This document shows, piece after piece, positions 9,032-19,867 of a DNA stretch of 64,000 nucleotides (positions within the stretch are counted from its first letter, which is position 1; each line of letters starts with the position of its first letter). The position numbers and the translations under genes were made by a program. The stretch covers positions 6,541,001 to 6,605,000 of the forward strand of contig NZ_CP121666.1 of NCBI RefSeq assembly GCF_029714325.1, written 5' to 3'. The notes under the pieces were generated by a model, which worked only from the letters and a program-made list of their open reading frames with translations, searched no databases and was not told where the DNA came from. The DNA is from Bradyrhizobium sp. CB1717 (lineage in GTDB: Bacteria > Pseudomonadota > Alphaproteobacteria > Rhizobiales > Xanthobacteraceae).

Positions 9032-9940
9032 TCAGCGCGTCCCCACGCCTCCGTCCTCCCGACCAAAACGCTCCACCAGGAAATCGATGAACAACCGCAC
9101 CTTCACGGACAAATGCCGTGTCGGCGGATAGACCGCATAAAGCGCGAGCGGCGGCGCCGAATAATTGTCCAGCACCGTCCGCAGCTCTCCTTTCCTTAAA
9201 GCGTCCGCCGCGATGAACTCGGGCAGCAGCGCGAGCCCCCGGCCTTTGATCGCGACGTCTCGCAGCACTTCGGCATTGTTGACGCAGAGCGACCAGGCCG
9301 GCTGGATCCAGTGATCGCCGTCGCTGCCGGTGAGCTTCCACTGATTGCCGGTGAGCAGGAAGCCGTAGGTCAGCGAGGCGTGCTCGCGCAGATCCTGCGG
9401 ATGCTTTGGCGTGCCGTGACGCGCGAGATAATCCGGCGAGGCGCAGATCATGCGCGGGACAGGCACGATCTTGCGCGCGATCAGGCTGGAGGATTCCAGC
9501 TCCGCAATCCTCAAGGTCACGTCAAAGCCGTCCTGGACGGGATCGAGCAGATCGTCGCTGAGCACGATCTGGAGCTGAAGCTCGCCATAGCGCGTCATGA
9601 AATCGGCCAGCACCGGACCGAGCCGCATGGTGCCGAACGACATCGGCGCGTTGACGCGGAGCAGCCCCCGCGGCGTTGACTGGGCCTGCGTCACCGCCTG
9701 ATCGGCGGCCTCGATCTCCGAGAGGATCACGACCGCACGCTCGAAATAGCGCTGGCCGTTCTCGGTCGGGCTGGCGTGCCGCGTGGTGCGGTTCAAGAGC
9801 TGGACGCCGAGGCTCTCCTCGAGGTCGGCGATGTATTTGCTGATCGCCGAGCGTGACAGCCGCAGCTGCCGGCCCGCCTCGGCAAAACTCCCGCTTTCGA
9901 CCACTTTGACGAAGGCCCGGAGGCTGGCAACCTTATCCAA
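9032..9940 (-). CDS. LysR-family regulator of the divergent dioxygenase-hydrolase pair
   Basis: Transcription factor of 302 residues. The N-terminal winged helix reads KVASLRAFVKVVESGSFAEAGRQL and SRSAISKYIADLEESLG, followed by a LysR substrate domain with RVNAPMSFG and ARHGTPKHPQDL. The only suitable start in this frame is TTG at 9940. It is divergent from the MhqE-like gene at 10070, and the shared 129-bp region holds two similar GATTGTYTCCA motifs. By analogy with neighbours it probably senses quinones or another electrophile; that is inference. Confidence 0.9.
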   Translation of the reverse strand: MDKVASLRAFVKVVESGSFAEAGRQLRLSRSAISKYIADLEESLGVQLLNRTTRHASPTENGQRYFERAVVILSEIEAADQAVTQAQSTPRGLLRVNAPMSFGTMRLGPVLADFMTRYGELQLQIVLSDDLLDPVQDGFDVTLRIAELESSSLIARKIVPVPRMICASPDYLARHGTPKHPQDLREHASLTYGFLLTGNQWKLTGSDGDHWIQPAWSLCVNNAEVLRDVAIKGRGLALLPEFIAADALRKGELRTVLDNYSAPPLALYAVYPPTRHLSVKVRLFIDFLVERFGREDGGVGTR

Positions 9941-10069: not shown

Positions 10070-11008
10070 ATGTCTGGACTGCATCATGTGACCGCGATCG
10101 CCGGCGACCCCATCCGCAATTTTGGCTTCTACACCCGGGATCTCGGCCTGCGCTTCGTCAAGAAGACGGTCAATTTCGACGATCCCGGCACCTACCACTT
10201 CTATTATGGCGACGAGACCGGCCGCCCCGGCACCATCCTGACCTTCTTCCCCTGGGCCGGCGTGCCGGCAGGCCGCCGCGGCGTCGGCGAGACCCATCAG
10301 ACCGCCTTCCGCGTGCCGCAGCGCTCGCTCGGCTACTGGACCCAGCGATTCACCGAGAAGGGCATTGCCTATGAGGCGCCGGAGAAGCGCTTTGGCGAGT
10401 CCGTGCTGCCCTTCACCGATCCCGATGGCATGGCGCTCGCCCTGGTCGGCGTTCCCGGCGCCGAGAACGAGCCCGGCTGGAGCAATGGCGATGTGCCGGC
10501 CGAGCATGCGATCCGCGGCTTCCATGGCGTGACTTTGCTGCTCGACAGCGCGGCGAAGACGGCCGCCGTCCTCACCGACGTGTTCGGCTTCAAGGAGACC
10601 GGCCGCGAAGGTTCTGTGATCCGCTTCAAGGCCCCGGGCGATGTCGAAGGCAGCGTCGTCGACATCTACGAGGCCAAGGGCTTTTTGCGCGGGCACCAGG
10701 GCGGCGGCTCGGTGCATCACATCGCCTTCCGCGCGGCTGACGATGCCGAGCAGGGCCAGATGGCGCAGAAGCTCGTGAGCAATCACGGCCTGCACCCGAC
10801 CGAGCAGAGGGACCGCAACTACTTCCGCTCGATCTACTTCCGCGAGCCCGGCGGCGTGCTGTTCGAGATCGCAACCGATATCCCCGGCTTCGCCGTCGAC
10901 GAGCCCGTCGCGACGCTGGGACGTGACCTGAAGCTGCCCAGCTTCCTCGAGCAGCATCGCAAGCAGATCGAGGACGTGCTGCCGAGCCTGGAAGAGAGCG
11001 TGTCATGA
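10070..11008 (+). CDS. Ring-cleaving dioxygenase / glyoxalase-like protein (MhqE/MhqO type)
   Basis: Vicinal-oxygen-chelate protein of 312 residues with two VOC modules. Seen are the N-terminal LHHVTAIAGDPIRNFGFYTRDLGLRFVKKT, with His residues placed to bind metal, GYWTQRF and FTDPDGMALAL closing the first module, and HHIAFRA and YFREPGGVLFEIATD in the second. The family includes Bacillus MhqE and MhqO, which handle hydroquinones. The ATG at 10070 is preceded by TTGGAGGACGAC. The gene overlaps the hydrolase start by 4 bases (ATGA). The natural substrate is not known from the sequence. Confidence 0.87.
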   Translation: MSGLHHVTAIAGDPIRNFGFYTRDLGLRFVKKTVNFDDPGTYHFYYGDETGRPGTILTFFPWAGVPAGRRGVGETHQTAFRVPQRSLGYWTQRFTEKGIAYEAPEKRFGESVLPFTDPDGMALALVGVPGAENEPGWSNGDVPAEHAIRGFHGVTLLLDSAAKTAAVLTDVFGFKETGREGSVIRFKAPGDVEGSVVDIYEAKGFLRGHQGGGSVHHIAFRAADDAEQGQMAQKLVSNHGLHPTEQRDRNYFRSIYFREPGGVLFEIATDIPGFAVDEPVATLGRDLKLPSFLEQHRKQIEDVLPSLEESVS

Positions 11009-11631
11009 CCGAGACTTCATTCATCCATCGCTTCGAGCCCGCGCGCGACGCGGGCTCCCCTCCTCTGCTGCTGCTGCACGGCACCGGCGGTGACGAGAAC
11101 GATCTCCTCGGCCTTGGCAAGATGATCTCGCCGGGCGCGGCCCTGCTCTCGCCACGCGGCCGCGTGCTCGAGCACGGCATGCCGCGCTTCTTCCGCCGCC
11201 TCGCGGAGGGTGTATTCGACGAGGAGGACGTGCGACGGCGTGCACGCGAGCTCGGCGACTTCGTTACGGAAGCGCGGCAACGCTACGGCATCGCCGCGCC
11301 TGTCGCGGTCGGCTTCTCCAACGGCGCCAACATTGCAGCCGCGCTGTTGCTGCTGAAGCCGGACGCGCTTGCAGGCGCGATCCTGCTGCGCGCCATGGTG
11401 CCGCTGTCGGATCCGCCCAAAGCGCAGCTCGGTGGCAAACCTGTCCTCCTCCTGTCCGGGCAGGCTGATCCGATCGTGCCGGCGAGCAACTCGGCGCAGC
11501 TCGCCGCGCTGCTGTCGCAAGCCGGCGGCAGCGTGACGCACAAGGTCCTGCCGGCGGGCCATCAATTGTCGCAGGCCGACGTGACGCTCGCCCGCGACTG
11601 GATTGGCAACGTCGCCGCCGAAGCGGCCTGA
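11005..11631 (+). CDS. Alpha/beta hydrolase, MhqD-like carboxylesterase
   Basis: A 208-residue hydrolase of the phospholipase/carboxylesterase family. LLLLHGTGGDE forms the oxyanion region, GFSNGANIAAALLL carries the nucleophile Ser, the Asp is expected in LLSGQADPIVP, and the His in LPAGHQLSQADV. It is translationally coupled to the upstream dioxygenase; Bacillus mhqED has the same pairing for methylhydroquinone resistance. A thioesterase or lysophospholipase role cannot be excluded. Confidence 0.87.
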   Translation: MTETSFIHRFEPARDAGSPPLLLLHGTGGDENDLLGLGKMISPGAALLSPRGRVLEHGMPRFFRRLAEGVFDEEDVRRRARELGDFVTEARQRYGIAAPVAVGFSNGANIAAALLLLKPDALAGAILLRAMVPLSDPPKAQLGGKPVLLLSGQADPIVPASNSAQLAALLSQAGGSVTHKVLPAGHQLSQADVTLARDWIGNVAAEAA

Positions 11632-11671: not shown

Positions 11672-11775
11672 GAACCTCTGCAAGCGACCTTCCGCCGCAT
11701 CTGCGCAATCGGGCGCCAGCCTGCCGGAAATTTCCGCTTGCCCGTTTCTGCGCCAGGCTTAGAATTTGGGACAAG

Positions 11776-11792
11776 GTTCCGAAATTTGGAAC
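11776..11792. promoter_or_regulatory. Inverted repeat GTTCC-N7-GGAAC before the IclR gene
   Basis: GTTCC at 11776-11780 and GGAAC at 11788-11792 flank the AT-rich core GAAATTT, 18 bases before the regulator's ATG. IclR-family operators often contain TTCC/GGAA half-sites, so this may be where the regulator controls itself and the downstream ABC-catabolic operon. Confidence 0.4.
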
Positions 11793-11810: not shown

Positions 11811-12593
11811 ATGAGCGCTCTCACCAACGCGATCGAGATCCTCCGCTGCTTTTCCAGCGCGCGGCCGGATCTGTCGTTTGCGGACGTGATGGCGTTGACG
11901 GGCAAGCCGAAGAGCTCGACCTCGCGGCTGCTGCGCTCGTTGCGCGATTGCGGCCTGCTCGAGCAGGACCCGCACACGCGCCGCTACCGGCCGGGCCTGC
12001 TCACCTTCGAACTCGGCCGGCTGCACCGTGCCCATGACGATCTCATCAGCATGGCCGAGCGCGAACTCCGCGAGGTTTGCGCGCGCACCGGGCACACGGG
12101 TTACATCGCCGTGCTCGACGGCTTTGAGCAGGTCGTGCTCCGCATCGTGCCCGGCTCGAATCCCCTGCGCGTCGTCAATCCGCCGGGCCAGCGCACGCCG
12201 GCGCTCGCGACCTCGAACGGCCGCGCCATGCTGGCGCGCCTCTCCGACGAGGACATCCGTGCGCGCGTGCCGGCGACCTATCCAAAGCTGCCGCGCAACT
12301 CGCCGCAGACTTTCAAGCAGTTGATCACGCGCCTCGACGAGATTCGCCGCACCGGCGTGTCGGAGGCGGCCGATGAATCCATCGAGGGCGTCGGCTCACA
12401 GGGCTTTGCCCTCAAGAGCGGCGAGACCGGCGAGATGATTGGCATCGCGGTGTCCTATTCCGTGCAGGCGACCACCGCCGCCGAGCGCGCCAATGTCCGC
12501 CGCGAGTTGGCGGCGATGGCCGCGAAGCTGCGACGACTGACCGGCGATCCGCTCGATCAGGACACCGCGCGCATCCAGACGGGGACGCGATGA
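11811..12593 (+). CDS. IclR-family regulator of the ABC / AroM / DUF917 / hydantoinase operon
   Basis: A 260-residue regulator. The N-terminal winged helix reads LTNAIEILRCFSSARPDLSF and MALTGKPKSSTSRLLRSL; the C-terminal effector domain contains TGYIAVLDGFEQVVLRIVPG and a GIAVSYSVQA segment. The ATG at 11811 is preferred to 11766 because the family usually begins just before the helix-turn-helix. Its stop overlaps the first permease start by 4 bases, so the regulator is part of the operon it presumably controls. The effector is probably the operon's unknown substrate. Confidence 0.9.
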   Translation: MSALTNAIEILRCFSSARPDLSFADVMALTGKPKSSTSRLLRSLRDCGLLEQDPHTRRYRPGLLTFELGRLHRAHDDLISMAERELREVCARTGHTGYIAVLDGFEQVVLRIVPGSNPLRVVNPPGQRTPALATSNGRAMLARLSDEDIRARVPATYPKLPRNSPQTFKQLITRLDEIRRTGVSEAADESIEGVGSQGFALKSGETGEMIGIAVSYSVQATTAAERANVRRELAAMAAKLRRLTGDPLDQDTARIQTGTR

Positions 12594-13465
12594 GCAGCAC
12601 CGCAACCACCCGTCTCAACGGCCTTGCGCTGTTCATCCTGCCGAGCGCGCTGCTGTTTGCCTTGTTCTTCTTCCTGCCGATCGGGCTGATGGCGCTGATG
12701 AGCGTGCTCACCGGCAATCCCGTGGTGATGCCGAAGGTCGCCTTCACCACGCGCCACTACGCCCGCATGATCGGCGATCCCTATTATCTCGAGGTGATCT
12801 GGACCACGATCCGGATCGGGCTCGTCACCACGCTGGTCGCGCTCCTGATCGGCTATCCGCTGGCGCACTGGATGGCGCGCATCAAGAGCCGTGCCGGTCA
12901 CGCGCTGCTGCTGATGGCGGTGTTGGCGCCGATGCTGACCGGCATCGTGGTGCGCACCTTCGCCTGGATGACGCTGCTCTCCGACAAGGGCGTGGTCAAC
13001 CAGACCCTGATGTCGCTCGGCCTCATCGCTCAGCCGCTGAAGCTGATGTACACCGAGACCGGCATCGTGGTCGGCCTCGTCCACATCTACGTGCCCTTCA
13101 TGGTGCTGACGCTGACCGGCGTCATCGGCCGGATCGACGAGCGGCTGGAGCAGGCCGCCGAAAATCTCGGCGCCAGCCCCTTGCGCGCCTTCCTCGAGGT
13201 GACGCTGCCGCTCAGCCTGCCCGGCATCCTCGCCGGCTCGCTGCTGGTGTTCGCGCTCGCGATCAGCGCTTATGTTACGCCGATCCTGCTCGGCGGCTTC
13301 CAGATCATGACGCTGCCGATCCTGATCTACCAGCAGATCTCAGCGAACTTCAACGTCGGCTTCGCTGCCGCGCTCGGCATCGTGCTGCTCGCGATCTCGC
13401 TCATGCTCGTCATCGCCTATAACCGCGCACTCGGCCTCGTCTCAGGCCAGCGCGAATTGCAGTGA
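12590..13465 (+). CDS. ABC transporter permease, PotB type
   Basis: Inner-membrane subunit of a spermidine/putrescine-type (polyamine/opine/phosphonate) importer, 291 residues with about six membrane segments. The cytoplasmic ATPase-docking loop EQAAENLGASPLRAFLEVTLPLSLPGILAG (about residues 186-215) matches the EAA motif. It starts within the stop of the IclR gene. Substrate choice is set by the binding protein at 14369, so polyamines should not be assumed. Confidence 0.92.
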   Translation: MSSTATTRLNGLALFILPSALLFALFFFLPIGLMALMSVLTGNPVVMPKVAFTTRHYARMIGDPYYLEVIWTTIRIGLVTTLVALLIGYPLAHWMARIKSRAGHALLLMAVLAPMLTGIVVRTFAWMTLLSDKGVVNQTLMSLGLIAQPLKLMYTETGIVVGLVHIYVPFMVLTLTGVIGRIDERLEQAAENLGASPLRAFLEVTLPLSLPGILAGSLLVFALAISAYVTPILLGGFQIMTLPILIYQQISANFNVGFAAALGIVLLAISLMLVIAYNRALGLVSGQRELQ

Positions 13466-13473
13466 GGCGAACG

Positions 13474-14340
13474 ATGCAAACCTCGGCCTCGCACAGCGCA
13501 TCGCTTCCGGCGGCACAGCAGGCGGCGTCCGTGCATACGCCCGGGCCTATCAGGCACTACGGCCGATACCTCTATCTCGCGATCAACATCGCCATCCTGG
13601 TCTTCCTGCTGGCGCCGATCGCAATCGTCGTGGTGTTCGCGCTGAACCCGACGCCGTTCATCCAGTTTCCGCCGGTCGGCGTGTCGCTGCGCTGGTTCGA
13701 AAAATTCTTCGCTTCGCGCGACTTCATGCATGCGCTCGGCTTCAGCCTCGAAGTCGCCGTGCTCACCACCCTGTCCGCGACGATCCTCGGCGCCTCGGCA
13801 GCGCTGGCGCTCGCGCGCGGCAACCTGCCGGGCACGCGGCTGATCGTTGCCACCATGCTCTCGCCCCTGATGCTGCCGGCGATCCTCACCGGCCTGGCAC
13901 TGTTCCAGACCTATGTGCTGCTCGATGTGGGTCGGCCCACCTGGGGCCTCGTCGCCGGCCATACGCTGGTGACGCTGCCTTATGTGGTGCGCACCACGCT
14001 CGCCGTGCTGCATAATTTCGACACGCGTCTGGAGGAAGCCGCGCGCAATCTCGGCGCAAGTCCGTTGCGCACCTTCTTCGAGGTGACGCTGCCGCTGATC
14101 AAGCCGGGCGTGCTTGCGGGCGCGATCTTCGCCTTCATCGTCTCGTTCGACCAGTTCCCGGTGTCGCTGTTCCTGGTCTCGCCGGGCAACGAGACGCTGC
14201 CGGTCACGCTGTTCAATTATCTGAAGTTCGATCTGGACGGCACCATCGGCGCCGCCTCGGTGGTCTCGATCGTGCTCGCTTTTATCGTCGTCATCGGGCT
14301 CGACCGCACGGTCGGCCTGCGCTCCTACGTCAAATTGTAA
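13474..14340 (+). CDS. ABC transporter permease, PotC type
   Basis: Second membrane subunit of the same importer, 288 residues. The first membrane segment is about residues 25-50 and the EAA loop reads EEAARNLGASPLRTFFEVTLPLIKPG. The ATG at 13474 is chosen because GAGGCGAACG lies before it; a GTG at 13462 overlaps the preceding stop and would add four residues. The loop is nearly identical to that of the upstream permease, as expected for a heterodimer. Confidence 0.92.
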   Translation: MQTSASHSASLPAAQQAASVHTPGPIRHYGRYLYLAINIAILVFLLAPIAIVVVFALNPTPFIQFPPVGVSLRWFEKFFASRDFMHALGFSLEVAVLTTLSATILGASAALALARGNLPGTRLIVATMLSPLMLPAILTGLALFQTYVLLDVGRPTWGLVAGHTLVTLPYVVRTTLAVLHNFDTRLEEAARNLGASPLRTFFEVTLPLIKPGVLAGAIFAFIVSFDQFPVSLFLVSPGNETLPVTLFNYLKFDLDGTIGAASVVSIVLAFIVVIGLDRTVGLRSYVKL

Positions 14341-14368
14341 CCGCTCATTGCAACGAAGGAACCGACAC

Positions 14369-15433
14369 ATGATGAAAGCTCTGGGATCGTCACGGCTCAG
14401 CCGCCGCCGCTTTCTGACCGCGAGCGCCTCGCTCGGCATCGGCACCATCGCCGCGCCTTACGTCGCGCGCGCCGACGATCCGACGCTGCGCATCACCGGA
14501 TGGGGCGGCAAGTGGGGCGAGATCATGAAGGCCGAGATCGGGCCCGCCTTCGAGAGCGAGTTCAAGTGCAAGCTCCAGACTGACTCCGCTTTCCCCTATC
14601 TGCCAAAACTCCAGGCAAGCTCGCGCTCGGCGCCGATCTACGACGTGCTGCACACCAATTCCAACGAGCAGTGGGCCGCCGCCGAGATAGGGCTGGTCGA
14701 GCCGAAGATCGATCCCAAGCTGGTGCCGAACCTCGCCGACGTCTATCCCTACGCCGTCAGCGACAAGATCGTCGGCGTCTCGATCTTCACCAGCGCCATC
14801 GGCCTTGGCGTTCGCACCGACAAGGGCTACGGCAACATCACCTCCTGGAAGGAGCTCTGGGACGCAAAGTACAACGGCGTCCGCGGCGGCTATGTCATTC
14901 CCGTCAACAGCCTCGGCCAAGCCTTCCTGATGATGTGCGGCACGCTGTTCGGCAAGGGGCAGACCGATCTCGACGCGGCCTATGCCGCACTGGAGAAGCT
15001 GAAGCCGATCAAGATCGTCGACTTCACCGGCGCGATGGAAAAGATGCTGCTCTCAGGCGAAGTCGGCCTCTGCGTCATCCACGATTCCGGCATCTACCGC
15101 TATGACGGGCAGAACCAGCCGACCGATTTCGTCTCGCCGAGCGAAGGCGTGCTGTCGCTGGAGCAGGTTTTGACCATCACGCCCGGCAGCAAGATGAAGG
15201 AACTCGCCAACGCCTACGTGAACTACATGCTGCGTCCCGAGGTGCAGAAGCGCTTGGCTGAAACGGTCTGGTACTCGCCGGCCAACAGACGCGTGAAGCT
15301 CGACGCCAAATACGACGCCAAGCTGCTCACCACGCCCGAGAAGGTCTCCAAGCTGATCCAGGTCGACTGGAAGTGGTACAACGAACGCAAGGACGAGATC
15401 GACCAGCGCGTCAACCGGATCTTCCGCGCATGA
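14369..15433 (+). CDS. ABC transporter periplasmic substrate-binding protein, PotD-like, Tat exported
   Basis: A 354-residue binding protein with a twin-arginine leader (LSRRRFLTASASLG, about residues 10-23) ending near APYVARA. Mature features are RITGWGGKWGEIMKAEI, a VLHTNSNEQWAAAE segment and GYVIPVNSLGQAF, typical of family 1/PotD-like solute-binding proteins that take small cationic or amide compounds. The ATG at 14369 follows GAAGGAACC. It is operonic with both permeases, the ATPase and the three catabolic genes, so its ligand is likely the compound that those enzymes attack. Confidence 0.9.
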   Translation: MMKALGSSRLSRRRFLTASASLGIGTIAAPYVARADDPTLRITGWGGKWGEIMKAEIGPAFESEFKCKLQTDSAFPYLPKLQASSRSAPIYDVLHTNSNEQWAAAEIGLVEPKIDPKLVPNLADVYPYAVSDKIVGVSIFTSAIGLGVRTDKGYGNITSWKELWDAKYNGVRGGYVIPVNSLGQAFLMMCGTLFGKGQTDLDAAYAALEKLKPIKIVDFTGAMEKMLLSGEVGLCVIHDSGIYRYDGQNQPTDFVSPSEGVLSLEQVLTITPGSKMKELANAYVNYMLRPEVQKRLAETVWYSPANRRVKLDAKYDAKLLTTPEKVSKLIQVDWKWYNERKDEIDQRVNRIFRA

Positions 15434-16515
15434 GCGCGTCGATCGAGATCGCAGGGGTCAGCAAGGTCTATGACGGCGGCGTCCGCGCGGTGGACGCGGT
15501 CGCGATGGACATCAGGCAAGGCGAGTTCTTCTCCCTGCTCGGCCCCTCCGGCTGCGGCAAGACCACGACGCTGCGCATGATCGCCGGCTTCGAGACGCCG
15601 AGCTCGGGCGCGATCCGCGTCGACGGCGCCGACATCACCCATGTGCCGGCGCACAAGCGCGACATGGGCATGGTGTTCCAGAACTACGCGCTGTTCCCGC
15701 ATCGGACCGTCGCCGAGAACGTCGCCTTCGGCCTGCGCATGCGCGGGCTCGACAAGGCGACCATTGCGGCCAAGGTGAAGGCGGCGCTCGCCATGGTCGA
15801 GCTGTCCGGGCTGGAAGGCCGACGCCCGGCCCAGCTCTCCGGCGGCCAGCAGCAGCGCGTCGCGCTTGCCCGCGCCATCGTCATCGCGCCGCGCGTCCTG
15901 CTCTGCGACGAGCCGTTAGGGGCGCTCGACAAGAAGCTGCGCCAGCAGATGCAGTTCGAGCTCAAGCAACTGCAGAAGAAGCTCGGCCTCACCCTGGTCT
16001 TCGTCACTCACGACCAGGAAGAAGCACTGGCGATGTCCGACCGCATCGCCGTGATGAACGGCGGCCGCGTCGAGCAGGTCGGCACGCCCACGGAAATCTA
16101 CAACCAGCCGACGACGCGCTTCGTCGCCGACTTCATCGGCGACACCAACATCTTCCGCGGCGAGCGCACCGCGACCAGCACGGTTGCCTCGGCGCTCGAT
16201 GTCGGCAAGGGCCTGATCCTGGCGCTGCCGCCGACCGAGGCGCGGGGCACTGGCGTGCTCTCGGTCGCGCTGCGCCCGGAAAAGATTCGCCTCATCCCGC
16301 GCGGCGACGGCGCCACCCCAGCCGGCATCTCCGCGCATGGCATCGTCGAGAACACCAACTTTCTCGGCGGCGCCGTGCTCTATCGCATCACGCTCGAGGG
16401 TGGCCATCGCGTTCTCGTGCAACAACCCAATGCAGGCACGAGCCGCCTGTTCGTTCCCGGCAACGGTGTCACGCTCCAGTGGACGCCGGCCGATCTCGTC
16501 GTGTTGAAGGACTAG
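15430..16515 (+). CDS. ABC transporter ATPase, PotA type
   Basis: Energy-coupling subunit, 361 residues. Walker A is GPSGCGKTT (about residues 38-46), the signature is LSGGQQQRVALARA, Walker B is VLLCDEPLGALD, and the H-loop is VFVTHDQEEALA. A C-terminal TOBE domain (LRPEKIRLIPRG region) is present. The ATG overlaps the stop of the binding-protein gene. With the two permeases and the binding protein this completes the importer. Confidence 0.94.
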   Translation: MSASIEIAGVSKVYDGGVRAVDAVAMDIRQGEFFSLLGPSGCGKTTTLRMIAGFETPSSGAIRVDGADITHVPAHKRDMGMVFQNYALFPHRTVAENVAFGLRMRGLDKATIAAKVKAALAMVELSGLEGRRPAQLSGGQQQRVALARAIVIAPRVLLCDEPLGALDKKLRQQMQFELKQLQKKLGLTLVFVTHDQEEALAMSDRIAVMNGGRVEQVGTPTEIYNQPTTRFVADFIGDTNIFRGERTATSTVASALDVGKGLILALPPTEARGTGVLSVALRPEKIRLIPRGDGATPAGISAHGIVENTNFLGGAVLYRITLEGGHRVLVQQPNAGTSRLFVPGNGVTLQWTPADLVVLKD

Positions 16516-16517
16516 AC

Positions 16518-17204
16518 ATGAACATGCCATTGAAGCACCAGCGCATCGGAGTGGTCGTGATCGGCCAGAGCCCGCGCCCGACCGTCGCTGCCGAGATCGC
16601 TGCCGTGTTGTCGCCGGGCATCCAGATCGAGCTGCGCGGCGCGCTCGACGGCATGAGCCGCGCCGAGATCGATGCCATTCCGCCGATGGACGGCTACGAC
16701 ACGCTGTTCACGCTGCTGCCGAACGGCGACGGCGTCACCATCAGCAAGAAGGAAGTCGAGCGACGCGCGAGCCAGCAGATCACGCGCTTCAAGCACGAGG
16801 GCGTCGGCGTGACGCTGATGGCCTGCACCGGCAAATTCCCCAACCTCGCGGCCGACGGCCTCGTCATCCTGCCCTCGGCCGTCCTGCATAATCTCGTCGA
16901 GGCCGTGCTGCCGAAGGGACGGCTCGGCGTATTCTCGCCGCTGCCCGAGCAGACCGCGCTGATCGACAAGAAGTGGCAGCGCGAGGGCGTCGAGGTTGTC
17001 GGCATCACGCTGCGCCCCGGCTCGAGCGAGGCTGCCGTCGACGAGGCTGCATGCACCATGGCCGACCTCGAGCCCGATCTCGTGGTGATGGACTGCATCA
17101 GCTACACCAGCGCCAACAAGGCGCGCGTGCGCAAGGCCTATCCCGGCCCCGTGATCCTCGGCATTGCCGCGGCGGCCCGCATCGTCGAGGAGCTGGTGTC
17201 GTGA
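16518..17204 (+). CDS. AroM family protein
   Basis: A 228-residue protein of the AroM family (PF07302), whose biochemical function is not established. It begins with RIGVVVIGQSPRPTVAAEIA, the family hallmark, and carries MACTGKFPNL and VMDCISYTSANKARVR, resembling racemase-like folds that use paired cysteines: Cys in ACTGKF and Cys in MDCISY. The historical name comes from a gene beside aroL in E. coli, but here it sits between an ABC importer and DUF917/hydantoinase genes. An amino acid or hydantoin racemase is a reasonable guess. Confidence 0.85.
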   Translation: MNMPLKHQRIGVVVIGQSPRPTVAAEIAAVLSPGIQIELRGALDGMSRAEIDAIPPMDGYDTLFTLLPNGDGVTISKKEVERRASQQITRFKHEGVGVTLMACTGKFPNLAADGLVILPSAVLHNLVEAVLPKGRLGVFSPLPEQTALIDKKWQREGVEVVGITLRPGSSEAAVDEAACTMADLEPDLVVMDCISYTSANKARVRKAYPGPVILGIAAAARIVEELVS

Positions 17205-18307
17205 GCAAGGTGGAATTGAAGACGATCAGCCTCGAAGAGATCGAGGCACTCGCGGTCGGCGCCTGGATCCTCGGCACCGGTGGCGGCGGCAGCCCCTATC
17301 TCGGCCTGCTCAATCTGCGCCGGCTCTATGCCGAAGGGCACTGCGTGCAACTGATGTCGCCGCTCGACCTCGACGACGCGGACTGGGTCGCTGTTGTCTC
17401 CAACATGGGCGCGCCGCTGGTCGGGCAGGAGCGCCTTGCCGACAGCCGCAACATCGCGCGCGCCGTGCGCATGCAGGAAGAGATCAACAACATCAAGTTC
17501 CGCGCTGTGATGTCGGTCGAGATCGGCGGCGGCAATGGCGTGCAGGCGCTGATGGCGGCCGCGCATCTCGGCATTCCCGTGGTCGATGCCGACTGCATGG
17601 GCCGCGCCTTCCCCGAAGCGCAGATGACGTCGGTCGCGATCGGGGACTTACGTCCCTATCCCTGCACGCTCTACGATCCCCGCGGCATCGAAGCCGTGGT
17701 CACCAAGGTGCCGAGCTGGAAATGGATGGAGCGGGCGAGCCGCAAGATCTGCGTCGAGATGGGCTCGATCGCCTCCACCAGCAAGGCGCCGCGCACCGGG
17801 CGCGAGGTCAAGGACTGGGGCATCCACTTCACCACCACCAAGGCGATCCGCATCGGCCGCGCCGTGCAGGAGGCGAACCGCCGCCACGAGGATCCGATCG
17901 CCGCGCTGCTTGCGACCGAAGGCGGCCAAAAACTGTTCACCGGCAAGATCGTGGACGTCGCCCGGCGCACCACGGAGGGGTTCTTGCGCGGCACGGCGAT
18001 GGTCGACGGCAGCGACGCCGATCGCGGCACCAAGCTGAAGCTCTCGTTCCAAAACGAATGGATCGTCGCCTGGCGCGACGAGGAGGCGATCGCGACCTCG
18101 CCCGATCTGATCTGCGTGCTCGACAGCGTCAACGGCCACGGCATCGGCACCGAGACCATCCGTTACGGCCAGCGCGTCACCGTCGTGGCGCTGCCGGCGC
18201 CGCCGGTGCTGACGAGCCCGCGTGGGCTCGAATTCGTCGGCCCGCGCGCCTTCGGCTACGACCTCGACTTCCGTTCCCTCTTCTCGCCCGCTGCGGCTGG
18301 AGCTTAA
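17201..18307 (+). CDS. DUF917 (S-methyl thiohydantoin desulfurase-like) protein
   Basis: A 368-residue protein starting at a GTG that overlaps the aroM stop. The glycine-rich LGTGGGGSPYLGLLNLRRL near residues 22-40, the SNMGAPLVGQERL block and the VDADCMGRAFPEAQMT motif mark DUF917. I recall that this family was later named for S-methyl thiohydantoin desulfurase, which would make the pathway one for a sulfur-containing hydantoin; this should be checked. The next gene encodes a HyuA-type protein, a known companion of DUF917. Confidence 0.85.
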   Translation: MSKVELKTISLEEIEALAVGAWILGTGGGGSPYLGLLNLRRLYAEGHCVQLMSPLDLDDADWVAVVSNMGAPLVGQERLADSRNIARAVRMQEEINNIKFRAVMSVEIGGGNGVQALMAAAHLGIPVVDADCMGRAFPEAQMTSVAIGDLRPYPCTLYDPRGIEAVVTKVPSWKWMERASRKICVEMGSIASTSKAPRTGREVKDWGIHFTTTKAIRIGRAVQEANRRHEDPIAALLATEGGQKLFTGKIVDVARRTTEGFLRGTAMVDGSDADRGTKLKLSFQNEWIVAWRDEEAIATSPDLICVLDSVNGHGIGTETIRYGQRVTVVALPAPPVLTSPRGLEFVGPRAFGYDLDFRSLFSPAAAGA

Positions 18308-18313
18308 GATCCC

Positions 18314-19867
18314 ATGAAGCGTATTGGCATCGATGTCGGCGGCACCAACACGGACGCCGTGCTGATCGTCGACGAGAAGGTCGTCCATTCCGTCAAGCGT
18401 CCGACCACCGCGGATGTGACCTCGGGCATTCTGGACGCGCTGAAGGCGTTGCGTGCGGAGCCCTCGGCTGCCGTGAAGGTCGATGCGGTCGTGATCGGCA
18501 CCACGCACTTCATCAACGCGGTGGTGCAGCGCCGCCACGTGCAGAAGATCGGTGCGATCCGCATCGGCATGCCGGCGAGCGCCTCGCTGCCGCCGTTCTG
18601 CGACTGGCCCACCGATCTCGCCTCTCTCGTCAACGGCGAGATCTTCATGCTGGAGGGCGGCCACGATTACGACGGCCGCCCGTTCATGCCGCTCGACGTC
18701 GCCGGCCTCAAGGACGCCGCCCGAAAGATCAAGGACAAGGGCCTGCGCTCGGTCGCGGTGTGCTCGAGCTTCTCCCCGCTCGATCCCTCCTGCGAGATCA
18801 CGGCGCGTGAGATCCTCGCCGAGATCTGCCCCGACGTCGCGGTGACGCTGTCGCACGATCTCGGCCGCATCGGCCTGCTCGAGCGCGAGAACGCCGCGCT
18901 GCTCAACGCCTCGCTGCACGATCTCGCCGTCACCACGGTCGCGGCCTTCCGCAAGGCGATCGCCGACAGTGGCATCGATGCGCCGCTGTTCCTGACCCAG
19001 AACGACGGCACGGTGATGCAGGCCGAGATCGCCACCGCCTTCCCGGTGATGAGCTTTGCCTCCGGCGCCACCAACTCCATGCGCGGCGCCGCGCATCTCT
19101 CCGGTCTCGACGACGCCATGGTCGTCGACGTCGGCGGCACCACGAGCGACATCGGCCAGCTGCGCCACGGGTTTCCGCGCGAAGCCAATGCCGTGGTCGA
19201 AGTCGGCGGCGTGCGCACGCTGTTCCGTATGCCCGATCTGCTCTCGATCGGGCTCGGCGGTGGCAGCCATGTCGACGAGGACCCGGTCCGCGTCGGCCCG
19301 CTCAGCGTCGGCTATCGCCTGACGTCGGACGCGCTGGTGTTCGGCGGCTCGCGCCTCACCGCCACCGACATCGCTGTCGCGGCCGGCCTGATCGACATCG
19401 GCGACCGCTCGCGCGTCGCGAACCTGCCGAAGCGGCTGATCGAAGCCGCACTGCGCGATGCCTGGCGCAAGCTCGAGGAAGACATCGACCGCATGAAGAC
19501 CGAGGCCGGCGACGTGCCGCTGCTCGCGGTCGGCGGCGGCGCCTTCCTGGTGCCGGATCGCCTGCCCGGCATCTCCGAGATCGTCCGCGTGCCGCATGGC
19601 GACTGCGCCAACGCGGTGGGCGCCGCGATCGCGCAGGTCTCAGGTGAAGCCGACCAGGTGTTCCGCGACCTCAGCCGCGAGGATGCCATCGCCGCCGCAC
19701 GCGACATCGCGGCGGATCGTGCCGTTCAGGCGGGAGCCGCGCGCGACAGCCTCAAGACCGTCGACGTCGAGGACATGCCGATCGCCTATCTGCCCGGTAA
19801 CGCGCTGCGGGTGCGGGTGCGTGTTGCAGGGGCGATCGCCGATCCGGATCTGCCGGCGGCGGCGTAG
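18314..19867 (+). CDS. Hydantoinase/oxoprolinase family protein, HyuA type
   Basis: A 517-residue ATP-dependent amidohydrolase-type protein. The N-terminal phosphate-binding motif is GIDVGGTNTDAVLI (about residues 5-18), a second is VVDVGGTTSDIGQL in the middle, and GLGGGSHV follows; these define the hydantoinase A/oxoprolinase fold related to the actin ATPase family. No HyuB-like subunit is in the operon, unlike classic N-methylhydantoinases, so the DUF917 protein may be the functional partner. It ends the operon; a two-block repeat begins about 30 bases later. Confidence 0.9.
   Translation: MKRIGIDVGGTNTDAVLIVDEKVVHSVKRPTTADVTSGILDALKALRAEPSAAVKVDAVVIGTTHFINAVVQRRHVQKIGAIRIGMPASASLPPFCDWPTDLASLVNGEIFMLEGGHDYDGRPFMPLDVAGLKDAARKIKDKGLRSVAVCSSFSPLDPSCEITAREILAEICPDVAVTLSHDLGRIGLLERENAALLNASLHDLAVTTVAAFRKAIADSGIDAPLFLTQNDGTVMQAEIATAFPVMSFASGATNSMRGAAHLSGLDDAMVVDVGGTTSDIGQLRHGFPREANAVVEVGGVRTLFRMPDLLSIGLGGGSHVDEDPVRVGPLSVGYRLTSDALVFGGSRLTATDIAVAAGLIDIGDRSRVANLPKRLIEAALRDAWRKLEEDIDRMKTEAGDVPLLAVGGGAFLVPDRLPGISEIVRVPHGDCANAVGAAIAQVSGEADQVFRDLSREDAIAAARDIAADRAVQAGAARDSLKTVDVEDMPIAYLPGNALRVRVRVAGAIADPDLPAAA

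Follow-up and report, generated by a model that had tools for sequence, protein, structure and literature searches.

An eight-gene operon and its importer

The stretch of DNA analysed here, referred to as the window, comprises 64,000 nucleotides of Bradyrhizobium sp. CB1717 (contig NZ_CP121666.1, positions 6,541,001 to 6,605,000) and harbors eight genes on the plus strand between positions 11811 and 19867, which encode an IclR-family regulator, an ATP-binding cassette (ABC) importer, an AroM protein, a DUF917 protein and a short HyuA-type ATPase (Table 1). Neighbouring genes overlap by 4 bases or are separated by no more than 28, and all eight open reading frames were found as a previous sequence-only reading had described them, including the HyuA without HyuB. 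As a whole, the locus is best explained, with a probability of about 45%, as a substrate-inducible catabolic operon in which HyuA and DUF917 would open a cyclic dipeptide. The genome consists of one contig of 9.23 Mb and contains a single DUF917 gene; the nearest named relatives of the window belong to Bradyrhizobium, with AroM identities of up to 99%.

The AroM protein scored 256 bits with PF07302 (cut-off 23.8) and 224.3 bits with NF007788 (cut-off 198), and HyuA reached 128 bits with Hydant_A_N (cut-off 25) and 102 bits with Hydantoinase_A (cut-off 22.9). The DUF917 profile match, which the sequence-only reading had proposed as a check, was obtained with both PF06032 and PF20906 (178 and 236 bits versus 27). 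HyuB was not among the eight genes in the Pfam domain scan; the three HyuB (PF02538) genes of the genome are all located outside the window.

The importer had been taken for a full PotABCD-type system. This designation holds at the family level, and the ATPase passes the broader polyamine-type subfamily model TIGR01187 (390.6 versus 355.6 bits), yet every subunit, including the ATPase with 393 of 482 bits for PotA, remains below its polyamine equivalog cut-off (Table 1). Moreover, the Trp residue of the PotD motif IWNGS aligns with His in the window solute-binding protein, and the Trp and Asp residues of FWMDSL align with Leu and Gln; we take these PotD positions to be ligand residues. The leader of the solute-binding protein contains a twin-arginine-like motif (SRRRFLT, by eye).

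The solute-binding protein also matches MotA (5l9g). Together with the match of HyuA to 5-oxoprolinase (6yra) and the many AroM matches from plant-associated Rhizobiales, this would be compatible with the import of an opine-like compound or another lactam of plant or microbial origin (agropinic acid or a pyroglutamyl compound), which would then be opened as by 5-oxoprolinase. However, a single-isomer opine needs no racemase, the opine genes sought were not found in the 50 kb examined of a 194 kb Ti plasmid, and the operon is also present in Reyranella and other groups, which are not known as opine users. We therefore regard an opine or lactam substrate as improbable.

Table 1. Coordinates of the features at the window locus (positions in the window) and of the AroM-LuxR fusions (locus and positions therein).
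Feature	Position	Strand	Remarks
IclR-family regulator	11811-12593	+	PF09339, PF01614
ABC permease, PotB-like	12590-13465	+	PF00528; PotB model 180 bits, cut-off 348
ABC permease, PotC-like	13462-14340	+	PF00528; PotC model 144 bits, cut-off 326
Solute-binding protein	14369-15433	+	PF13416; PotD model 57 of 582 bits
ABC ATPase with TOBE domain	15430-16515	+	PF00005, TOBE_2; TIGR01187 passed, PotA equivalog not passed
AroM, proposed racemase or epimerase	16518-17204	+	PF07302; Cys102, Cys192 (numbering on 16521-17204)
DUF917 protein, HyuA-linked clade, GTG start	17201-18307	+	PF06032, PF20906 (S-Me-THD N and C domains)
Short HyuA-type ATPase, 517 aa	18314-19867	+	PF05378, PF01968
Sigma-70-like promoter candidate TTGCCC, 16 nt, TAGAAT	11738-11765	+	consensus scan, 9/12 matches
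Candidate IclR operator GTTCCGAAATTTGGAAC	11776-11792	.	18 bases 5′ of the IclR start codon
AroM-LuxR fusion	L002:7895-8785		
AroM-LuxR fusion	L003:8013-8927		
AroM-LuxR fusion	L005:7943-8893		
AroM-LuxR fusion	L074:9274-10266		
AroM-LuxR fusion	L075:10118-11149		
AroM-LuxR fusion	L154:2469-3413		
AroM-LuxR fusion	L159:1415-2320		
AroM-LuxR fusion	L168:1376-2323		
AroM-LuxR fusion	L169:1358-2275		

Directly 5′ of the operon, a ring-cleaving-dioxygenase-like gene (10088-11631) and an esterase-like gene (9032-9940), both identified by eye, are oriented divergently from a LysR-type gene and probably form a unit of their own. The dioxygenase-like gene was likewise observed at 19 of the 21 close Bradyrhizobium loci described below.

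Conservation and variants of the gene order

An AroM-profile scan of named genomes yielded 279 confirmed matches, the best 80 of which are referred to as AroM-scan loci. The exact order IclR-permease-permease-solute-binding protein-ATPase-AroM-DUF917 was observed at 35 of these 80 loci; 21 of them are close Bradyrhizobium copies, and the remaining 14 include Tardiphaga, Azorhizobium, Phreatobacter and Reyranella. Thus, the gene order is conserved beyond the genus and recurs more often than by chance, and the lack of conservation that would have spoken against the sequence-only reading did not occur. DUF917 is present at 68 and DUF917 together with HyuA at 64 of the 80 loci, which, being picked by AroM, are uninformative on the frequency of DUF917-HyuA pairs without AroM. 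Among the 12 loci without DUF917, several break off at a contig edge near AroM, and in four (L132, L134, L138, L156) AroM lies well within the contig and DUF917 is absent. In L132, L134 and L138 AroM adjoins a major facilitator superfamily transporter gene, identified as such in L134 and by clustering with the L134 gene in the others; L134 also carries an S/N-oxide-reductase-type molybdoenzyme and luciferase-like monooxygenases. For sequences outside annotated records, we relied on the gene calls of our own script, which missed DUF917 in L088 and L092 and AroM in L073.

Of 297 genomes sampled at the order level, 17 contain AroM. Ten of the 12 AroM matches above 100 bits were located within approximately 3 kb of a DUF917 match above 150 bits, and in the other two cases AroM shares its operon with a HyuA-HyuB fusion, which was recognised by Pfam in L066 and by its clustering with L066 in L067. 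A phylum sample of 398 genomes contained AroM in 14, with DUF917 within 3.5 kb of AroM in all four genomes from the class of the window and in none of the ten from other classes. The distribution of the operon is patchy: one genome of the order sample (G000) has AroM, and eight other genomes of its genus have none. Three order-genome loci duplicate AroM-scan loci, so that the 146 DUF917 rows of the combined set represent 143 and the 102 AroM rows 98 distinct proteins.

Throughout the variants, HyuA and DUF917 form the constant pair, while the importer is of the Pot or the Dpp type and the stereochemistry gene encodes either AroM or an Asp/Glu racemase. In sister operons whose importer is of the Pot type, the Asp/Glu-racemase gene stands where AroM would be, in the orders racemase-permease-permease-solute-binding protein-ATPase-HyuA-DUF917-DUF917 (L010-L012, L083-L086, L089) or solute-binding protein-racemase-permease-permease-ATPase-DUF917-HyuA (L007, L094, L095). 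Two or three tandem DUF917 genes beside one HyuA, as observed in L010-L012, L079-L087, L167 and L176, suggest heteromeric DUF917 partners. Moreover, a flavin adenine dinucleotide (FAD) monooxygenase gene lies directly 3′ of AroM at 13 of the 80 AroM-scan loci, ahead of DUF917 where the contig reaches that far. These Reyranella-type loci are L150, L152, L161, L164, L166, L167, L175, L176, L178, L180 and L182-L184, to which L205 can be added. A flavin mononucleotide (FMN) reductase gene is present at 15 of the 80. Both assignments were made in one or two members (the monooxygenase as PRK06185-type in two scanned proteins) and extended to the rest by clustering.

HyuA, DUF917 and AroM as candidate enzymes

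The first 360 residues of HyuA align with N-methylhydantoinase and 5-oxoprolinase. Further matches comprise a CapA model, acetophenone carboxylase subunits and, weakly, MutL. At E ≤ 0.001, Hydant_A_C (PF19278) was reported for the L066 fusion but not for the window HyuA. In a tree of 82 HyuA rows, the window protein falls into a group of 51 rows with a support of 100/100, and at every locus behind these 51 rows AroM is of the catalytic type. The rows of racemase operons group apart, and neither AroM nor a racemase accompanies 8 of the 11 Dpp-type rows. Owing to how the loci were collected, AroM loci are overrepresented in this tree, from which 16 near-identical Bradyrhizobium rows were dropped (98 to 82). 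The best reading of these data is that HyuA and DUF917 act together as an enzyme that opens rings at the expense of ATP, DUF917 taking over the part of HyuB. Judged from the intact ATP motifs of HyuA, the most likely chemistry would be the ATP-dependent opening of a cyclic amide.

The sequence-only reading had considered a sulfur-containing substrate. In such a scenario, a thiohydantoin or an ergothioneine breakdown product would be imported, DUF917 would remove the sulfur and the ring would then be opened, in line with the fact that the DUF917 members named by NCBIfam are thiohydantoin desulfurases. In a tree of 146 DUF917 sequences, however, the window protein falls into a HyuA-linked group of 136 rows (support 0.989), of which 133 have HyuA within 4.5 kb according to our own gene calls. 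A second group of nine rows (support 1.0) is separate, and L097 lies outside both. Eight of the nine second-group members are accompanied by genes of the urocanase-like, HutH-like or amidohydrolase type, a setting that matches ergothioneine catabolism; the former two names are by-eye readings of the sequence. All five tested second-group proteins pass the thiohydantoin-desulfurase model NF058529 (577-602 bits, cut-off 440), whereas the window protein shares the DUF917 Pfam domains with this desulfurase and yet reaches 77 bits, and 104 of 450 bits with the S-methyl thiohydantoin desulfurase model NF058532. The four other HyuA-linked proteins tested likewise fail both models (77-124 bits with the window protein included), as does L097 (204 and 183 bits).

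In contrast to the second group, where His30, His132 and His279 are present in nine of nine proteins and are inferred to be metal ligands, the window DUF917 contains Leu34, Phe137 and Ser282 at these places. Within the HyuA-linked group, His occurs in none of the 136 proteins at the first two and in one at the third. Conversely, Glu77, Glu107, Asn112, Asp131, Arg135, Glu177, Arg181, Asp252, Arg255 and Gln-Asn-Glu 284-286 are invariant in all 136, and Arg135, Arg181, Asn285 and Glu286 are common to both groups. On these grounds (separate clade, failure of both NCBIfam models and absence of three invariant His residues), a desulfurase role is not supported for the window DUF917. None of the eight operon genes belongs to the ergothioneine pathway.

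Two observations would still be in favor of sulfur chemistry. SoxB is encoded within 15 kb at seven AroM-scan loci, namely 9-15 kb from HyuA-DUF917 in L150, L161, L167, L173, L176, L180 and L181 (by NCBIfam in L176, by BLAST in the others), which may be a chance neighbourhood. Moreover, a streptomycete cluster (L186:7577-14313) has the order cytosine permease-HyuA-DUF917-OsmC-cysteine synthase-DUF917, which hints at a sulfur-linked variant of the family. Taken together, we consider a thiohydantoin substrate for the window operon very unlikely, and the split between the two groups should stop the name desulfurase from spreading to the HyuA-linked clade.

In line with the earlier suggestion that AroM is a racemase or an accessory protein, the protein shows the fold of hydantoin and Asp/Glu racemases. 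The candidate catalytic residues Cys102 and Cys192 are invariant in 24 single-domain members, and both are retained in 89 of 93 single-domain proteins of the AroM cluster. Fold and cysteines in combination support a racemase-type protein. A hydantoin racemase ranks first among its structural matches, level with others, and arylmalonate decarboxylase and maleate isomerase follow within 1 Z unit. The latter matches, and those of HyuA to acetophenone carboxylase subunits and MutL, would fit a non-hydrolytic system, in which HyuA-DUF917 had another ATP-dependent activity, such as carboxylation or the reactivation of a partner protein, and AroM acted as an isomerase or decarboxylase. Decarboxylases of the arylmalonate type employ a one-Cys mechanism, against which the two conserved Cys residues of AroM speak, and the fused partner in L066 is of the hydantoinase/oxoprolinase type. 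Non-hydrolytic chemistry thus appears quite improbable.

When AroM domains are fused to a LuxR-type helix-turn-helix (Table 1), both candidate catalytic Cys residues are lost in nine of nine cases. From the residue pattern, these AroM-LuxR proteins are likely pseudoenzyme sensors of the pathway, suggesting that a group of regulators arose from dead enzymes.

The operator, the substrate and known systems

The palindrome GTTCCGAAATTTGGAAC (GTTCC-N7-GGAAC) is located directly 3′ of a promoter-like pair that is weak on its own (two sites in the region versus 0.9 expected in shuffled sequences). The core TTCC-N7-GGAA was found in 14 of 21 non-redundant IclR upstream regions, compared with a mean of 0.07 and a maximum of 1 in 300 shuffles; counting a GGAA-N5-TTCC half-array, the number rises to 18 of 21 (shuffled mean 0.17). 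With the 24 regions set aside as redundant included, the core is present in 37 of 45. Genome-wide the motif is unspecific (11 sites versus 23 for the reversed control). The 14 regions include L066 and L067, where an IclR protein 41% identical to that of the window heads an operon of fused HyuA-HyuB, OPT, DUF1177 and AroM. Moreover, two additional AroM operons, taken from other classes of the phylum, both have the full palindrome ahead of IclR, namely IclR-Peptidase_S51-DUF1177-AroM (L204) and IclR-OPT-DUF1177-AroM (L208); the palindrome was not found 5′ of the OPT gene of one of these two. Since the same operator is found on differently built AroM operons, it connects the HyuA+DUF917 pair with HyuA+HyuB and ties AroM to peptide genes. 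DUF1177 accompanies AroM in L066, L067, L174, L204 and L208, in four of the five under an IclR with the same operator; the protein has conserved His and Asp motifs, and a search by sequence for relatives of solved structure found none.

The sequence-only inference of uptake and cyclic-amide opening by one conserved operon is supported by the gene order and the HyuA ATP motifs. At the level of the compound class, we consider the following sequence of import, racemisation and ATP-dependent ring opening probable. Judged from its family and context, the importer would take up a small cyclic amide whose stereocentre is exchangeable. AroM, by its two-cysteine racemase fold, would interconvert the stereoisomers so that both become usable. 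HyuA, which has the ATP motifs and is tightly paired with DUF917 at the gene level, would activate the ring amide with ATP, and hydrolysis would be carried out jointly with DUF917 replacing HyuB. IclR, acting at its conserved palindrome, would repress the operon until the substrate or a product binds. With a cyclic dipeptide as the substrate, the ring would be opened to a dipeptide, and ordinary peptidases would complete the breakdown.

The identity of the substrate as a cyclic dipeptide (2,5-diketopiperazine) or a near relative is a tentative assignment, favored by the genes for dipeptidases and peptide importers that occur in the vicinity of some relatives. We examined 108 loci with a DUF917-HyuA pair (25 from order genomes, 19 from plasmids, 64 from the AroM scan) for neighbour families, each sought with one to three references. 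An M19 dipeptidase gene was observed near the pair at four of the 25 order-genome loci, in two genera, where a hand estimate (30 over-cut-off matches in 25 genomes of approximately 136 Mb) gives a chance expectation of about 0.1, and at one of the 19 plasmid loci (L004). In the latter, the M19 dipeptidase and an Asparaginase_2 protein are encoded in one run of genes. Of the other peptide-related families, M20 was matched at two of the plasmid loci, OPT at two and Asparaginase_2 at one of the 108 loci, and Dpp importer genes share a gene run with DUF917-HyuA at seven loci. The Peptidase_S51 gene of L204 lies within an IclR-AroM operon, and this family includes aspartyl dipeptidases and cyanophycinases.

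Published work is in line with this assignment. Cyclodipeptide-oxidase clusters without a synthase are enriched in AroM, DUF917 and hydantoin racemases, as well as in dipeptide, OPT and EamA transporters, and peptidases are often present (PMC11055893). Rhizobium sp. NA04-01 breaks down Asp- and Phe-containing cyclic dipeptides, and other bacteria likewise degrade cyclic dipeptides, by enzymes described as unidentified at the time (2013), and 15 peptidases were inactive on the cyclic dipeptides tried (PMC3852281). Some genes annotated as 5-oxoprolinase have been suggested to encode a lactamase or a cyclic dipeptide hydrolase (PMC6061476).

Several observations weigh against a cyclic dipeptide. 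With the references used, the M19, M20, OPT and Asparaginase_2 families were matched at none of the 64 AroM-scan pair loci, which are of the window's own kind; the window operon lacks a peptidase, and M19 is absent from the genome altogether. The peptide evidence is thus drawn from sister operons of few lineages. The recurrence of the operator might be due to descent of the regulators from one ancestor and need not mean that they respond to one inducer. The FAD monooxygenase gene 3′ of AroM is left unexplained, the second Cys is missing in four single-domain AroM-cluster proteins, and the SoxB genes mentioned above point elsewhere. The DUF917 fold (model with a mean predicted local distance difference test score, pLDDT, of 91.4) offers no catalytic hint, as its only clear match, 2o3i, was deposited as a hypothetical protein. 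Finally, NCS1-type permeases stand beside DUF917-HyuA in Enterococcus (L190, together with PucR regulators) and in the streptomycete (L186), which fits a hydantoin or nucleobase-like ring.

These permeases lead to hydantoin utilisation, in which 5-substituted hydantoins would enter through the importer, AroM would racemise them in the manner of HyuE, and HyuA and DUF917 would convert them to N-carbamoyl amino acids, whose breakdown would be completed by a carbamoylase encoded elsewhere. The hydantoin racemase among the top structural matches of AroM agrees with this route, as do the M20 genes near two of the 19 plasmid pairs (L003, L005; none at the other loci), given that in classical hyu clusters HyuA is accompanied by a racemase and by an amidohydrolase of the M20 family. 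However, no carbamoylase-like gene was noticed in the window operon or in gene runs of the same type, none of the 108 pair loci matched the one hydantoinase-like amidohydrolase reference, and the OPT, Dpp, dipeptidase and Peptidase_S51 neighbours would be left unexplained. We therefore consider hydantoin utilisation unlikely, and our preference leans to a cyclic dipeptide first and a hydantoin second.

In its most far-reaching form, the cyclic-dipeptide reading would make HyuA-DUF917 a HyuB-free ATP-dependent cyclodipeptide hydrolase and the missing pair of diketopiperazine catabolism, AroM an epimerase for LD and DD rings, the AroM-LuxR proteins dead-enzyme sensors, and the IclR operator one type placed over interchangeable HyuA+DUF917 and HyuA-HyuB modules. 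That all of these hold together is rather unlikely. The operon, with its own importer and recognisable operator, nevertheless narrows the ligands to a short list, lends itself readily to a genetic test and points to a candidate pair of enzymes. It also suggests a role that can be tested for AroM and DUF917, two protein families described in PMC11055893 as not experimentally characterised as of 2024.

The window operon resembles several known systems. It has the subunit types and gene set of the PotABCD polyamine importer, yet the aromatic and acidic PotD residues are not retained. As in hyu clusters with the racemase HyuE, a racemase-fold protein and HyuA share one operon; the window has AroM instead of the usual racemase, an ABC importer and no carbamoylase that we noticed. 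From the HyuA-HyuB hydrolases (N-methylhydantoinase 7hk5, 5-oxoprolinase 6yra and caprolactamase CapAB), the N-terminal and central regions are retained, and the ATP motifs DVGGTNTD, DVGGTTSD and GLGGGS align with 7hk5; however, the window HyuA is short, no Hydant_A_C was found, and DUF917 is coupled to it instead of HyuB. The closest published precedent for the joint occurrence of AroM and DUF917, with transporters and peptidases nearby, are the cyclodipeptide-oxidase clusters, so that this association is already on record (PMC11055893); the consulted section describes no IclR operator, short-HyuA pairing or AroM-LuxR proteins. The operator, the split of the DUF917 groups, the HyuA-HyuB interchange and the Cys loss in AroM-LuxR proteins were not found in the literature searched.

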